Assembly: GCA_015063005.1 (NCBI GenBank)
Contig: SUTF01000009.1
Location: forward strand, 1-64,000
Reading direction: 5' to 3'
Length of the DNA: 64,000 nucleotides
Source: Methanobrevibacter millerae
GTDB taxonomy: Archaea > Methanobacteriota > Methanobacteria > Methanobacteriales > Methanobacteriaceae
Part shown: in pieces, positions 16,796 through 24,143 of the stretch
How the letters are laid out: the number at the start of each line of letters is the position of its first letter
Numbering within the stretch: the stretch's first letter is position 1
Notes under the pieces: generated by a model
The model's input: the letters and a program-made list of their open reading frames with translations, nothing else
What the model was told of the DNA's origin: nothing
Database searches by the model: none
Translations under genes and position numbers: made by a program

Positions 16796-19700
16796 TTATT
16801 TACCTACCTGAGATACATCAGATTTTTCTTCTAATTTAATCTCTTCTATGAGTTTATCCAAGTTTGCTGCTATACCAAAGTCACTTTTAGCCGGGTCTAC
16901 ACCATCGTCACCAAAGATTCTTTGAACAACATTACTTTGATTGTCAGTGACAAGTCCTGATGGTTTAACTTGCAAGTCCTGAAGTGCGTTTACAAGTCTT
17001 CTTTGCATGTAACCAGATTGTGCTGTACGAATCGCAGTATCTACAAGACCTTCTCTTCCTCCCATAGCGTGGAAGAAGAATTCAATTGGATCTAATCCAG
17101 ATTTATAACTTGAATGTACAAATCCTTTTGCCTTTGCCCCTAACTCGTTTCTCTTGAAGTGAGGTAAAGTCCTTTCAATGTATCCCCTGTGAATACGTCC
17201 ACCCCTAACTGCCTGTTGACCTACACAGGAAGTAATCTGAGTCAAGTTCAGCATGGATGCCCTAGCACCAGTACGTGCCATTACAACAGAGTGGTTGTGT
17301 TCCATAGTCAAGTAATCTTCTGCAATTTCACCGGATTTATCCCTAGCTTCCCCTAAAACTTGCATGATTCTCATTTCCAAAGTCTCTTCCAAGCTTCTAC
17401 CAGGTAATGCATCAAGAATACCTTCGTTATAAGCATCAATCAATCTGTCTACTTTTTCTTCTGATTTTTGTAAATGCTCATTAATTCTTGCTTGAGCTTC
17501 TTCAGGGATTTCTTCGTCGTTTAAACTAGTTGTAATACCAGTTACCATAATTCCACAGATAGCTAAGTCAGTTGATCTGTCTAAGAATTCCTTAGCTCTT
17601 CCAGGACCGTATTCTTTAACGATTTTATCCAAAATTTGACCGGACATGGATCCGTATGCCTTTTCGTCGATTACTCCATGTTTCAATATTCCGTTTTCGA
17701 TTACTACATATGCATCGATTGGACATAAGTGTTCATAGTCAACAACGGATGGGTCTGGAGCTTCTCTTAAGATTCTGTCACATTGACCACATTTGGTACA
17801 AATTTCAGCTTTATAAGTTAAGTTCAAATCATTAGGTAAAAGTAATGAGAATAACTCTTTACCAGTCCATCTATCGCCTTCAAATTTCTCAATAATGGAC
17901 TCGTCAATACCATCATCACTATCAGTTGCATATTTAGCAGTGATTTCATCAGCAATACGTTTATGTGCAATTGATTTGATGATTTCTTTTTCCTCATCAT
18001 CCCATTTGTTTGCCTTAAGACGTTTAGCCTTTTCATCATCGGATAAATCTAAAGTATTGAGATAAGTTTCCTTATCTGCTTTAGTTCCACGAACATTTTT
18101 GGTCTTTTTAGCAATTTCCCTTTCGATTGCAATATCTTCATCAGATTCGGATTTTTTCAATAACCATTTTTCACCATCATATTCAGGAATTGGTAAATGG
18201 GATTTACGAACAATCTGAAGTGCTTGTTCTTCTGGGAATGTCATTGATTTTCTTGTTAACAGGTATGCTCCTGAAATGTGATCGTGAATTGCACCAATAA
18301 TAGGTCCACCGAACCTTGGAGATAAGATGTGTTCCTGTACACGCATCAATGATTTTGCTTCTGCACGGGATTCGTCAGTTTGGAAAACGTGCATGTTCAT
18401 TTCGTCCCCATCGAAATCCGCATTGTATGGAGGACATACACATAAGTTTAATCTGAAAGTCTTGTAAGGCAATACCCTTACTTCATGTGCCATCATACTC
18501 ATTCTGTGAAGTGAAGGTTGACGGTTGAATAAAACCATATCTCCATCTTTTAAGTGTCTTTCTACAATATCACCAGGTTTTAAGTTTTCAAGAATGAATT
18601 CCTTAGTATCTTCATTGATTTTTCTTCTGCTTCCAGATTCAGTAATCATGTAGTTTGCACCAGGGTGTACGTTTGGACCGTTTTCAACATAGGTTCTGAT
18701 TTCATCTATGTTCCAGTCATTGACATATGCAGGTACGGTAACTTCTTTTGCAATCATTTCAGGCACACCGACCTCATTGATACTGATGTTAGGGTCTGGT
18801 GAGATTACTGTACGTGCTGAGAAGTTTACACGTTTACCTGAAAGGTTGGATCTGAATCTTCCTTCTTTTCCTTTCAACCTTTGGGTTAAGGTTTTTAAAG
18901 GTCTTCCGGATCTGTGTTTGGATGGTGGAACACCACTGGCCTCATTATCAAAGTAAGTAGTAACGTGATACTGTAATAAATCCCATAAGTCTTCAACAAT
19001 CAATTGAGGAGCACCAGCTTCCATATTCTCAACCAATCTTTGATTGATACGTAAGATATCTACTAATTTGTGAGTTAAGTCGTCTTCTGAACGTTCACCA
19101 GTATCCAAAGTAATTGAAGGTCTTACTGTTACAGGTGGAACAGGTAAAACTGTTAAAACTAACCATTCTGGTCTAGCAACTTCAGGATTGATACCTAAAA
19201 TATAGATATCCTCATCAGTGATGTTTTCCAATCTTTCTCTGATTTCAGAAGCGGTTAACTTATAATCTCCTTGATGGATAGTAACCGGTTTATCCAAAAC
19301 GATAGCTTCCTGAATGTAAGCTTGAACATGAGATTCCTTAATGTAATCACGAATGCGTCTTTTGAACTCAGTATCGAATTTTCTTTCGGATTTGAGCTCT
19401 TGGTCTTCAACCAATTTTGCTCTTTCATCTTCTAACTTTTCAATAGCTTCAGTATCAACTTCTCCTTCAGCAGAGTTAAGCTCATCAATCTTTTTGTCGA
19501 TTTTTTCAATCTTTTTAGTGTAATCGCTTTCTATGTTTTCTCTGATGCTGTTTTCAATTTCATCGATTTCAGCATTATGTTTCATTTCAAGAGTTTCATA
19601 GCTAGCTTCGATATCTTCTAAAGACTGATTTTTTCTACAGTGAGGACAAAGCTGTTTAGGGTCAATATATTTGAATTGAGCTTTTTCTTCAGTTTCGTCT

Positions 19701-20281
19701 CTTTGCATATAAGCTTCTGCATAAAGCTGATTTAAGATATTTATGAGAATATCTCTTCTTTCGATATGGTCATAAGTATCATTTTCTTCAGGATAGATAT
19801 CATCCATGATTTTGTCGACAATATCATTTTGTTTAGATTCATTGATTTCAACTTTTTTAGCATCACTTTGAATCTTTTTCAAGATATCTTCAAGGTTATC
19901 CCTATGATCGATAGCATCAGCCAATTTTTCACGATAATCATCTAAAACATCTTCCGGCAAGAGAACACGACCACAGTCATTACAGGTTGAACGTAAAATC
20001 TTGTGAATAATATCTCCAAAACCAACATGAAGAACTGGTCTTGCAAGTTCAATACTACCAAAGTGTCCTTGACAATCTCCACCTCTGACACCACAGGTAT
20101 GACATCTGAGGGAAGGGTCTAAAACTCCTAAACGAGGATCCATCAAACCGTTTTCAATTGGATAACCATCAGAGTCATAGGTATCTGGAGTTTCAACACG
20201 AACAACAGACATTTTACGAATATCCTCTGGAGACATTAATCCAAAGTTAATCCTTTCAATTTTTTTGATAAATTCTTTCAA
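16796..20281 (-). CDS. rpoA1: RNA polymerase subunit A' with two large insertions
   Basis: Large catalytic subunit. The N-terminal zinc site (C60, C63, C70 and H73), clamp zinc ribbon (C100/C103 and C212/C215) and the Mg-binding [10 protein letters not shown] (621-630) are intact. The length is 1161 residues against roughly 870-890 in other methanogens (from memory). One surplus block enlarges the clamp between C103 and about L342, including a charged coiled coil at about 217-315. A second lies at about 705-803, between the PEYDG segment and WTGKELFS, and is highly charged. No intein splice motifs are seen in either. The start is TTG with GGAG upstream. Position in the operon is normal. Confidence 0.97.
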
Positions 20282-20300: not shown

Positions 20301-22550
20301 TTATGCTTTGTCTCCTAAAACTAATTTAGGGAAGATACATAAACTTTTAAGTTCGTCTAATAACAATTTGAATGCATATGATATTTCGACTGGGTAAGTT
20401 TCTACATCTCCACAAATTGGACAATATTTTTTATTTCTATTTTTATCTTCAACAGCTAACATTCCACAATTTTCACAGACAATTGCTTCATATTTGTCAG
20501 ATTCATCTAAAAGTCTTTCTTTTAAGGTTAAAGCTGCACCGTGTGCAATAAGACAATCTCTTTCCATTTCTCCAAACCTTAAACCACCTTCACGTGCCCT
20601 ACCTTCTGTAGGTTGACGTGTAAGAACTTGTACAGGACCTCTAGAACGTGCATAAACTTTATCAGTAGTCATATGGTGTAATTTTTGGTAATAAGCTACT
20701 CCAACGAAAATTTCAGCTTCGATTCTTTCACCAGTAACACCATTGTATAATGATTCACAACCTGCAGATTCAAATCCGTGGTTTAAAAGATGTTGCTTGA
20801 TTGTTTTTTCAAGTTCCTTATTGAATGGAGTACCGTCAATACGTTCTCCTTCGAGACAACCTGCCTTACCAGCAACCATCTCAAGCACCTGACCTACAGA
20901 CATCCTTGAAGGAATAGCGTGTGGGTTAACAATTAAATCTGGAACAACACCAAATTCTGTGAAAGGAATATCTTCAGGGGACAATATTAAACCAATAACC
21001 CCTTTCTGACCGTGTCTTGATGCAAATTTATCACCAAATTCAGGTTGCCTGGTATCTCTTACTCTGATTTTAGCAAGTCTTGAACCTTCAATAGTTTCAG
21101 TTAATAATACTGCATCAACAATACCTTTTTCACCATGACGTACTGTAACAGAAGTTTCTCTTCTTTTTTCTGCAGCACTTGCCAATTCATCAAATTCTCC
21201 CAAGAATCTTGGAGGAGAAGTCTTACCAATTAAAACATCACCTGATTCAACATAGGATTCAGGATTTACAACACCAAACTCATCCAAGTGTCTGTATGCT
21301 TCTTCAGAACGGTATCCTTTAATGTTTTTATCAGGAACTTCGAAATTATCCTCTTGACCACCAGGATATCTTTTTTCAGAAGTATCATAAGATCTGAAGA
21401 ATGAAGATCTGCCTAATCCCCTTTCAAGAGAACCTTTGTTGATAACCATTGCATCTTCCATGTTATATCCTTCATAACTCATTAATGCAACAACAAAGTT
21501 TTGACCGGATGGTCTTAAGTCATAGTTAGTTGAGTCAATGATACGTGTTTTTACGATAGGAGTTTGAGGATGGTGTAACAGGTGAGCTCTGGTATCTGTA
21601 CGGAATGCGTAGTTGGATACATATAAACCTAAAGCCTGTTTTGTCATACCTGCTTCCATAGTGTTCCTTGGGGAGGAATTGTGATCTGAAAATGGAATAA
21701 TTCCTGCACAAATACCAAGCATGGTAGCAGGGTCAATTTCCAAATGAGTATGATCTGCATTCAAATCATTTAATCTCATTGCAATATATGAATTTTCTTC
21801 TTCTTCAGCATCCAAATATTCAATAACCCCTTTTTCAATTAAATCATCCCAAGTTAACTTGCCGTTGGCAACCTTATTGAGATGGTCATCAGTAAGAAGT
21901 GGCTGACCTTCTTTAACAATGATTAAAGGTCTTCTAGCCCTACCAGGGTCGTTGAAAATATAAATTTCATTGTTATCTTCATAATAAGTAATGTTCATTT
22001 CATGAGAAACAATTCCTTTTCTTCTTTTTTCCCTCATTTCTTCAGTGAATTCCTGAGGATTATCACATGTTCCGAAAAGTTCCCCATTAATATAAATTTT
22101 AGTCTTTAAACGATTGATAACAGGAGGTTCTACTTCCACATTGTCTTCGACAATTTCCTCAAATTCCTCTTTAATCTCTCCAATATCTTCTTTGATATCT
22201 TCGACTTTTTCTTCGATGACTTCTTTAGCCAAATCGATATCTTCAGAAATTTCAGGGGATTCTGCTATTGCTTTTTCTTTAGCCTCTTCAATATTTTCAA
22301 GGACTTCATGGAAATGTTTGCTTAACCGGGTATTTTTCCTTAATTTAGGATGAGCTTGGAAAAAACCTTTGATAACTTCTCTGTGATGATTGATTTCATC
22401 CATCTTTTCAGAATCTCCACCATTATCAGGATGATGAACTTCCGCTAATTCATCATAAGCATCTCTAACTTTTTTAGGAGTGACAATTTTGTCAAATCCA
22501 AAAAATTCATAAGCCTTCTTTACATCTTGATCATTATGATTAGTCAACAT
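20301..22550 (-). CDS. rpoB1: RNA polymerase subunit B' fused to an N-terminal J-domain
   Basis: C-terminal half of the split second-largest subunit. Its core starts near residue 143 ([16 protein letters not shown]) and keeps the catalytic [18 protein letters not shown] region, [14 protein letters not shown] and the terminal zinc site (CENCG...CPICG). In front sit 142 extra residues. Residues 9-64 read as a J-domain: helix [13 protein letters not shown], the loop motif H40-P41-D42 followed by [12 protein letters not shown], and helix III. A very acidic Glu/Lys-rich helical linker follows (about 76-140). The total is 749 residues; homologues have about 600 (from memory). GGGGTG lies just upstream of the ATG, 9 nt after the rpoB2 stop. 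No RBS and start for an unfused B' is visible near residue 143. Confidence 0.96.
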
Positions 22551-22559
22551 TACACCCCA

Positions 22560-24143
22560 TTAAATTAATTCAACATCCATTGTTTCAATTACATCTTTAA
22601 TTTCTTGCTCATCAGAACCTTCTGAAATATTACACATTAAAGCCAAGTTCTTTACCAAACCACAGTTAGGTCCCTCAGGAGTTTCGTTAGGACATATCTT
22701 ACCAAACTGAGTTGGGTGCAAATCTCTTGCTTCAAAGTGAGGTTGACTTCTAGTTAAAGGAGATACAACACGTCTTAAATGAGAAAGAGTACCCATGTAA
22801 CTAGTTCTATCTAAAAGCTGACTTACACCAGCTCTTCCACCAACCCAATTACCAGTAGCAATCGCGTGCTTAATGTTTTCAGTTAAAACATCACTACGAA
22901 CAGCCTGTTTGATGGAAAGTTCTTTACCTCTAGAAATACTTCTTTCAAGTTGATAACTCATATCTCTAGTTAAATTAGTGAAAGCAACTCTGAATAAATC
23001 TTCCATTAAATCTCCAGAAACCCTGAGTCTTTTATTAGTATAGTGGTCCTTATCGTGAGGTTCTCTTTGTTCGTGAATAACTTCAAGCAACATTTCAGTC
23101 ATTTCAGCTAAGTAAGTAGCTTTATCTGCACGTTTTTCTTTGCTATCACCTAAATGAGGCAATAAATAACGGTCAATTACTTCTTCAGCACGTTGGATAC
23201 GGTAATCTTCAGACATTTTAAAAGCAACACGATTTCCAATATATTTAATAGCTGCAGTGGTTAAATACTCATTTCTTTCTTCAGGAGTTAAATCTCTCAT
23301 TTCATTAGGATCAATTTTGAGAGCTTCTTCAGAAACTTGAATATCATCCGCAATAATCATTTGGAAATTGTTATTTGATTCTGAGATTTTAGTAATAATC
23401 TGTTCATCAGTGGATAAACCTAAAGCCCTTAATAAAATAACAAGTGGTATTTCACCAGGAACATATGGGAAAGATACTCTTAAAAATGCTTTATTTTTAC
23501 GTGGTTTTTTATACTCCAAAGTAATTCTAGCTCTAAAACCACTTCTAATTGAAGTTACGACCGCTTTAGCATGCCTGTCTTCAACTTCTTTGACACGTTC
23601 AAGAATAACCTTATTTGGTGCGATTTCTTCCATTGTAACAACAGCTCTTTCAGAACCATTTACAATAAAGTAACCACCCAAATCTTGAGGGTCTTCATTA
23701 TGTTCCAACAATTCTTCTGCGGAAAGACCATTGAGATAGCAGTAATCGGATTTTAACATTACAGGCAATTCACCAATATAAACCTCTTCTAAAGGATTTT
23801 CCTCATTATCCTTATTTAATGCCATATCAAGATACATATGTGCAGAATAATTTAAATTTCTAAGTCTTGCATCAGTAGGATAAATATCACTGTTTGAACC
23901 ATCTGCTTCACGAGTAAATGGTTTTTTGATTTTAACTTCACCAGTTTTAACTGTGTATTTAACCTTCTTTAGCTCACCAGTTTCTTCATCAGTTTCATCG
24001 TTCTCAATTACGATAGGTTCACTGATGTCAATAATTTTCTGAATTCTATTGTTCACAAAATCATTGTATGATTTAATATGGTGATCTACTAAATCATATT
24101 TATCAAAAAATGCATCAACTAACTTCCAGTTATTATCTGTCAT
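22560..24143 (-). CDS. rpoB2: RNA polymerase subunit B''
   Basis: N-terminal half of the second-largest subunit (protrusion, lobe and start of the fork). 527 residues. Signature segments are HIKSYNDFVNNRIQKII, GGYFIVNGSERAVVTMEEIAPN and VSPLTRSQPHFEARDLHPTQFG with ICPNETPEGPNCGLVKNLAL near the C-terminus. A strong GGAGG precedes the ATG. Splitting of RpoB into B'' and B' is a known feature of Methanobacteriales and related methanogens. Confidence 0.97.
   Translation of the reverse strand: MTDNNWKLVDAFFDKYDLVDHHIKSYNDFVNNRIQKIIDISEPIVIENDETDEETGELKKVKYTVKTGEVKIKKPFTREADGSNSDIYPTDARLRNLNYSAHMYLDMALNKDNEENPLEEVYIGELPVMLKSDYCYLNGLSAEELLEHNEDPQDLGGYFIVNGSERAVVTMEEIAPNKVILERVKEVEDRHAKAVVTSIRSGFRARITLEYKKPRKNKAFLRVSFPYVPGEIPLVILLRALGLSTDEQIITKISESNNNFQMIIADDIQVSEEALKIDPNEMRDLTPEERNEYLTTAAIKYIGNRVAFKMSEDYRIQRAEEVIDRYLLPHLGDSKEKRADKATYLAEMTEMLLEVIHEQREPHDKDHYTNKRLRVSGDLMEDLFRVAFTNLTRDMSYQLERSISRGKELSIKQAVRSDVLTENIKHAIATGNWVGGRAGVSQLLDRTSYMGTLSHLRRVVSPLTRSQPHFEARDLHPTQFGKICPNETPEGPNCGLVKNLALMCNISEGSDEQEIKDVIETMDVELI

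Follow-up and report, generated by a model that had tools for sequence, protein, structure and literature searches.

A predicted J-domain at the N-terminus of RNA polymerase subunit B' in one clade of Methanobrevibacter: a possible built-in Hsp70 co-chaperone

In the stretch of DNA analysed here (the window; 64,000 nucleotides, positions 1 to 64,000 of contig SUTF01000009.1, assembly GCA_015063005.1, Methanobrevibacter millerae), the gene rpoB' encodes RNA polymerase subunit B' with an N-terminal extension that matches the J-domain family. The J-domain is the module that switches on the chaperone Hsp70; the archaea that have it on RpoB' are methane producers of the gut. The first ~66 residues of RpoB', which match this family, keep the HPD tripeptide and are joined in frame, through an acidic linker, to the polymerase core, may well be a built-in co-chaperone that recruits DnaK (Hsp70) to RpoB' and stimulates its ATPase there. 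Judged from sequence, we put this role at about an even chance. The parts of the protein are as follows.

20301..22550, minus strand: rpoB', 749 amino acids, J-domain plus linker plus core (open reading frame; core TIGR03670)
22353..22532, minus strand: predicted J-domain fold, residues 7-66 (helix I 7-16, helix II 25-39, helix III 47-66; AlphaFold2, Pfam, hhalign against DnaJ)
Residues 13-59 of rpoB', minus strand: Pfam DnaJ match
22425..22433, minus strand: HPD tripeptide, residues 40-42 (sequence; unchanged in 8/8 orthologues)
22293..22352, minus strand: conserved segment after the J-fold, residues 67-86, NTRL...F (conservation; predicted secondary structure)
22107..22292, minus strand: acidic linker of variable length and sequence, residues 87-148 (ratio of non-synonymous to synonymous substitution rates, dN/dS, 0.68 over residues 87-146)
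20304..22106, minus strand: RpoB' core, residues 149-749, Rpb2 domains 4-7 (Pfam; NCBIfam)

Residues 1-89 of the window protein were searched against Pfam DnaJ (PF00226) and gave a match at E 3.8e-6 and 27.3 bits, the gathering score being 27.8. Above the Pfam cut-offs RpoB' shows only Rpb2 domains, and DnaJ is the top row below the cut-off. The family was matched by all eight orthologues that keep HPD (best E 7.9e-7), with scores above the cut-off in G065 (29.3 bits) and below it in G034 (24.8 bits); PF00226.37 is a precomputed assignment of two database fragments, one of them 84 amino acids long and sharing 99% identity with the window. Among PDB sequences, a profile of the eight orthologues found E. 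coli DnaJ at E 1.5e-5. The same profile matched DnaJ-sized open reading frames (~380 amino acids) in Methanobacteriales genomes at E ~1e-6 to 1e-3, including the DnaJ of the window's own genome (positions 10-62, E 3.4e-6), which is a separate protein of ~380 amino acids. Against a profile of 17 archaeal J-domains from related loci, the eight-row profile scored 61.5 in hhalign, 44.2 when HPD was masked and 40.1 when the eight loop residues were masked. None of 200 column shuffles reached the unmasked or masked scores (maxima 22.0-23.2; 23.2 unmasked, 23.0 HPD-masked). A stricter control consisted of 521 decoys, segments of 62 residues taken from the window's own open reading frames; none exceeded 24.0, and the window's single sequence scored 48.7. 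Because the HPD-masked profile scores 44.2 against a shuffle maximum of 23.0, and in view of the decoys, the N-terminus of RpoB' is, on these comparisons, homologous to J-domains at the profile level beyond the HPD motif.

The domain is also predicted to take the J-fold. It can be seen in the AlphaFold2 model (predicted local distance difference test score, pLDDT, 80.8) that helices 7-16, 25-39 and 47-66 have the J-fold layout, with antiparallel helices II and III plus helix I and with HPD in the loop between helices II and III. Residues 77-79 are predicted to form a short strand pairing with residues 21-23. The first-pass annotation had assigned the first ~64 residues to a J-domain with HPD at residues 40-42 (22425-22433). 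The domain is borne out by the Pfam, profile, masked-profile and decoy results as well as by the predicted fold, and the tripeptide lies exactly where it was placed; the boundaries have been corrected to fold residues 7-66 (22353-22532).

The distribution of the domain was followed in 67 Methanobrevibacter genomes, of which 61 gave an RpoB' match and 60 a readable RpoB' N-terminus; the J-like class was defined by the motif F-[GD]-[FCYI] within the first 60 residues and by eye. Eight of the 60 genomes, all of them species-level, share the architecture of J-domain, HPD and RpoB', 35 have a homologous J-like domain without HPD, and 17 have neither, so that the fusion as first described holds for eight genomes and not for the genus. 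Since HPD is gone from 35 of the 43 domain-bearing genomes, a J-domain fit to act on Hsp70 is the property of one clade and not a general property of Methanobrevibacter RpoB'. Named records with HPD include samples of goat and water-buffalo reticulum (L034, L036). Within the HPD group the J-domains are 56-76% identical to that of the window; HPD, the following NGGD and R22 are unchanged in 8/8.

In a tree of the 67 cores, a branch (support 96/72; present in 94% of bootstrap trees) sets the HPD rows apart. They are nested in an 11-row clade (100/100) together with G108 and G106, which have the domain without HPD (PPE in its place in G106), and G069, which has lost the domain. The sister clade of 38 rows contains 31 J-like domains without HPD and seven rows with none. 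When 14 of the 35 HPD-less domains are combined in a profile, it can be aligned with 69 columns of the HPD profile at E 4e-13. Moreover, HPD-less domains of G108 (31.0), G106 (29.4) and, from the sister clade, G084 (30.4) match DnaJ over at least 50 columns above the decoy maximum of 24.0. As these HPD-less domains match DnaJ, capture of a true J-domain with repeated loss of HPD is the simplest history. Most likely a single capture took place at the base of the 49-row clade, and most branches later lost either HPD, leaving a pseudo-J domain like that of Pam16, or the entire domain; a gain of HPD late in this history is disfavoured.

Selection was estimated for two sets of HPD orthologues. For 28 pairs (ratio of means, saturated dS excluded), dN/dS was 0.18 in the J region, 0.68 in the linker and 0.026 in the core. 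For the 21 of these pairs with core dS below 1, the values were 0.25, 0.53 and 0.04, respectively. Each of the three HPD codons has undergone silent changes, while the amino acids have stayed the same. The HPD form is therefore under purifying selection. In four HPD-less subclades the domain gave 0.33, 0.51, 0.40 and 0.63, and since the HPD form has a lower dN/dS than all four, it is the most constrained form of the domain, by a modest margin.

A partner for the domain is at hand. An HSP70-family match above the cut-off was found in 67/67 genomes and a full-length DnaK in all eight HPD genomes (in the window genome at G000:C5:88598-90334). In G105, G106 and G134 the best HSP70 match covers only the ATPase domain, in a longer open reading frame; in G106, whose grpE is found at the end of a contig, the assembly may just not include dnaK. 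The arginine of DnaK that meets HPD, which we take to be E. coli R167, is present in 20/20 DnaK sequences examined. It is the aspartate of the DnaJ HPD that this arginine contacts, and the basic residues of E. coli DnaJ that dock on DnaK are R22, K26, R27, K48 and K51 (PMC8215388). The R22 equivalent is kept in 8/8 HPD orthologues and is the only one of the five so kept. In the DnaJ of the genus itself, by comparison, basic residues occupy positions 22, 26, 27 and 48 (helix II of the same-genome DnaJ, EKEIKKAYRKLAMKYHPD, is basic at 22, 26 and 27). Because four of the five docking positions are not conserved as basic, we do not class the RpoB' domain, from its sequence, as a typical DnaK-type J-domain. 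Recognition residues differ among J-proteins, the mechanical step being performed by HPD (PMC7289447). Stimulation of DnaK by the RpoB' domain is likely but would be weaker or more specific than that by DnaJ, the tether possibly compensating for this.

Several results weigh against a J-domain captured to act on DnaK. HPD is gone from most genomes that carry the domain, and no HPD orthologue (0/8) has a basic residue in the place of K26, K48 or K51, and 3/8 have one in the place of R27. Single HPD-masked sequences are weak in Pfam (of three, the window gave E 0.12 and two orthologues gave no row for DnaJ). As to capture followed by loss of HPD, HPD-less profiles of A3 and clade III match DnaJ only at the level of shuffles, and four of seven HPD-less single sequences (G140, G145, G005, G085) are at decoy level against DnaJ.

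The first two of these results would suit a protein-binding module of J-domain descent that has ceased to work with Hsp70 and instead tethers another partner, such as a subunit of the polymerase, a transcription factor or a second J-domain protein, the HPD of one clade being a leftover or serving that contact. The domain is kept without HPD in 35/43 genomes, basic character is not conserved at four of the five DnaK-docking positions, and VIA ranks Pam16, the pseudo-J partner of Pam18 (pseudo-J status, PMC13254874), first among the fold matches of the window domain. This reading is possible, but we incline against it: HPD, NGGD and R22 have stayed unchanged in all eight orthologues despite their divergence from the window, and the HPD form is more tightly constrained than the four HPD-less subclades.

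Convergence, in which a helical hairpin of other origin acquired HPD by chance and resembles a J-domain superficially, seems very improbable and is disfavoured. HPD does occur in one clade, where parsimony alone permits a single gain, and most HPD-less members, as listed above, lack a direct DnaJ match. However, the HPD-masked match to DnaJ lies above all 200 shuffles, HPD-less domains from both sister clades (G108, G106, G084) exceed all 521 decoys, and the HPD-less group matches the HPD group itself.

The layout of the neighbouring genes and of the start region is given below.

22545..22558, minus strand: start region, with Shine-Dalgarno-like (SD-like) GGGGTG at 22553-22558, ATG at 22548-22550 and TTG at 22545-22547 (sequence)
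22560..24143, minus strand: rpoB'', upstream half of the split B subunit (open reading frame; NCBIfam)
16796..20281, minus strand: rpoA', 1161 amino acids, downstream of rpoB', with lineage-specific insertions (open reading frame; NCBIfam)

The gene order is rpoB''-rpoB'-rpoA', with rpoB'' ending at 22560, and rpoB' is in frame and has its own ribosome-binding site directly after rpoB'', as had been claimed. The core of RpoB' matches TIGR03670 (rpoB_arch) with 1003.9 bits (curated cut-off 811) over positions 1-598 of the 599 in the profile, and is thus full. It aligns to solved archaeal RNA polymerase B chains from about residue 518 onward; the chains compared are unsplit, of 1117-1131 residues. 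Residues 1-148 are an extension absent from many relatives, whose RpoB' frames start within ~20 residues of the core. Across the eight genomes with HPD, an SD-like sequence nearly abuts the ATG position (GGAGGTGA in five). Since, in addition, G044, G106 and G069 retain TTG without ATG, the true start may be TTG 22547 rather than ATG 22550, a difference of one residue. An internal translation start or a clipped N-terminus, by which the extension would be missing from the mature polymerase, is very unlikely. The first-pass annotation saw no alternative start for an unfused B'; an in-frame GTG does exist at residue 138 of the window protein, but it is not conserved among orthologues, and in 3/8 of these no in-frame ATG, GTG or TTG lies within 45 codons upstream of the core. 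Besides, the J codons are under purifying selection, and the upstream start with its SD-like sequence is present in all eight. An assembly artefact or contamination, for which one might point to the draft state of the window genome (20 contigs, completeness 89.5%), is refuted by the sharing of the architecture among eight genomes, one of which (G034) is a single contig and complete chromosome of 2,543,538 bp that matches the isolate M. millerae SM9, whose published genome is 2,543,538 bp (PMC4987999).

If the extension is a co-chaperone for DnaK, it could act as follows. Lying at the N-terminus, the J-domain would leave the ribosome first. It would hang on a variable, probably flexible acidic tether at the B''/B' chain break (~518 of unsplit archaeal B chains). 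Because of this position and tether, we propose that it loads DnaK in cis, either on RpoB' itself or on its neighbours, wherever parts of these are nascent or exposed. Loading might occur while RpoB' folds, when it meets its partners in assembly, or later in repair of damaged polymerase; the preference for assembly over rescue is our own choice. Few proteins are as conserved as the core subunits of RNA polymerase, whose assembly is normally assisted by chaperones in trans. We tentatively suggest, with somewhat less than even confidence, that here a cellular RNA polymerase has its own cis Hsp70 co-chaperone, that DnaK would be an accessory factor, driven by ATP, in the assembly or rescue of archaeal polymerase, and that the full evolutionary series on a core polymerase subunit is kept within one genus, from absence of the domain through an active J-domain and a pseudo-J domain to a re-elaborated extension. 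If so, the link between Hsp70 and transcription would be hard-wired in the genes and could be tested in a rumen methanogen whose genome is complete, and the genus would offer a natural experiment, with related polymerases bearing HPD, an HPD-less J-like domain or no domain.

RpoB' resembles class C (type III) J-domain proteins, among them Pam18/Tim14, polyomavirus T antigens and Rki of phage RB43, in carrying an HPD J-domain on an unrelated protein, without the DnaJ G/F and zinc-finger modules. In this class, the protein that bears the J-domain sets where Hsp70 acts (for Rki, PMC3486835). The HPDxGG loop is common to the RpoB' domain, the aligned T antigen and J-domains of viral contigs. RpoB' differs from other class C proteins in that its J-domain is attached to a catalytic-core subunit of RNA polymerase, has a less basic helix II and is predicted to form a strand pairing after helix III. 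Pam16 and other pseudo-J-domain proteins have the J-fold with HPD replaced (PMC13254874). They resemble the 35 HPD-less relatives, which belong with them, whereas the window domain retains HPD and does not. With archaeal split RpoB' (TIGR03670) the window protein shares the full core and the gene order, and it differs in its ~148-residue N-terminal extension with the J-domain. No description of a J-domain in an archaeal RNA polymerase was found among the papers listed by searches of the open-licence PubMed Central literature, subscription papers lying outside this scope, in agreement with the earlier statement that no such fusion was known. In the accessible part of the M. millerae SM9 genome paper (PMC4987999), a term search gave no mention of RNA polymerase.

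Other J-domain proteins were seen. In the window's own genome, a 252-amino-acid protein (L002 1156-1914, G000:C10) has a partial DnaJ match below the cut-off (positions 11-51, HPDLNPN). L187 (G085:C59) encodes a 177-amino-acid HPDCGG J-domain protein, perhaps on a mobile element, near a P-loop open reading frame that we presume, from its motif, to be zeta-toxin-like. In a scan that targeted this loop, 21 viral contigs (L212-L232) were found to encode J-domains with an HPDNGG or HPDKGG loop, several of them C-terminal on a protein with an FTALPAP-like motif.

The polymerase genes vary in further ways. One or two extra domains lie between the J-like domain and the RpoB' core in L136 (G140), L141 (G116) and, by eye, L137, L148 and L150; in G140 and G116 these domains show matches to CarboxypepD_reg beta-sandwich families, which is unusual in a polymerase subunit. 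RpoB is unsplit in L167 (G126), L172 (G145), L069, L078, L080, L084, L092, L093 and L103, the split B''/B' being usual in others; G145 has both forms, possibly by contamination. Finally, RpoA' of the window (16796-20281) and of L034-L037, L045, L053, L056, L059, L060, L062, L098 and L100 has a lineage-specific insertion of patchy distribution in the clamp region. The spacing from C-x-G-H to VRPS is 301-387 residues in these loci, versus 145-177 in most relatives and 248-251 in L050 and L130, and Rpb1 domain 3 of the window RpoA' is stretched as well.
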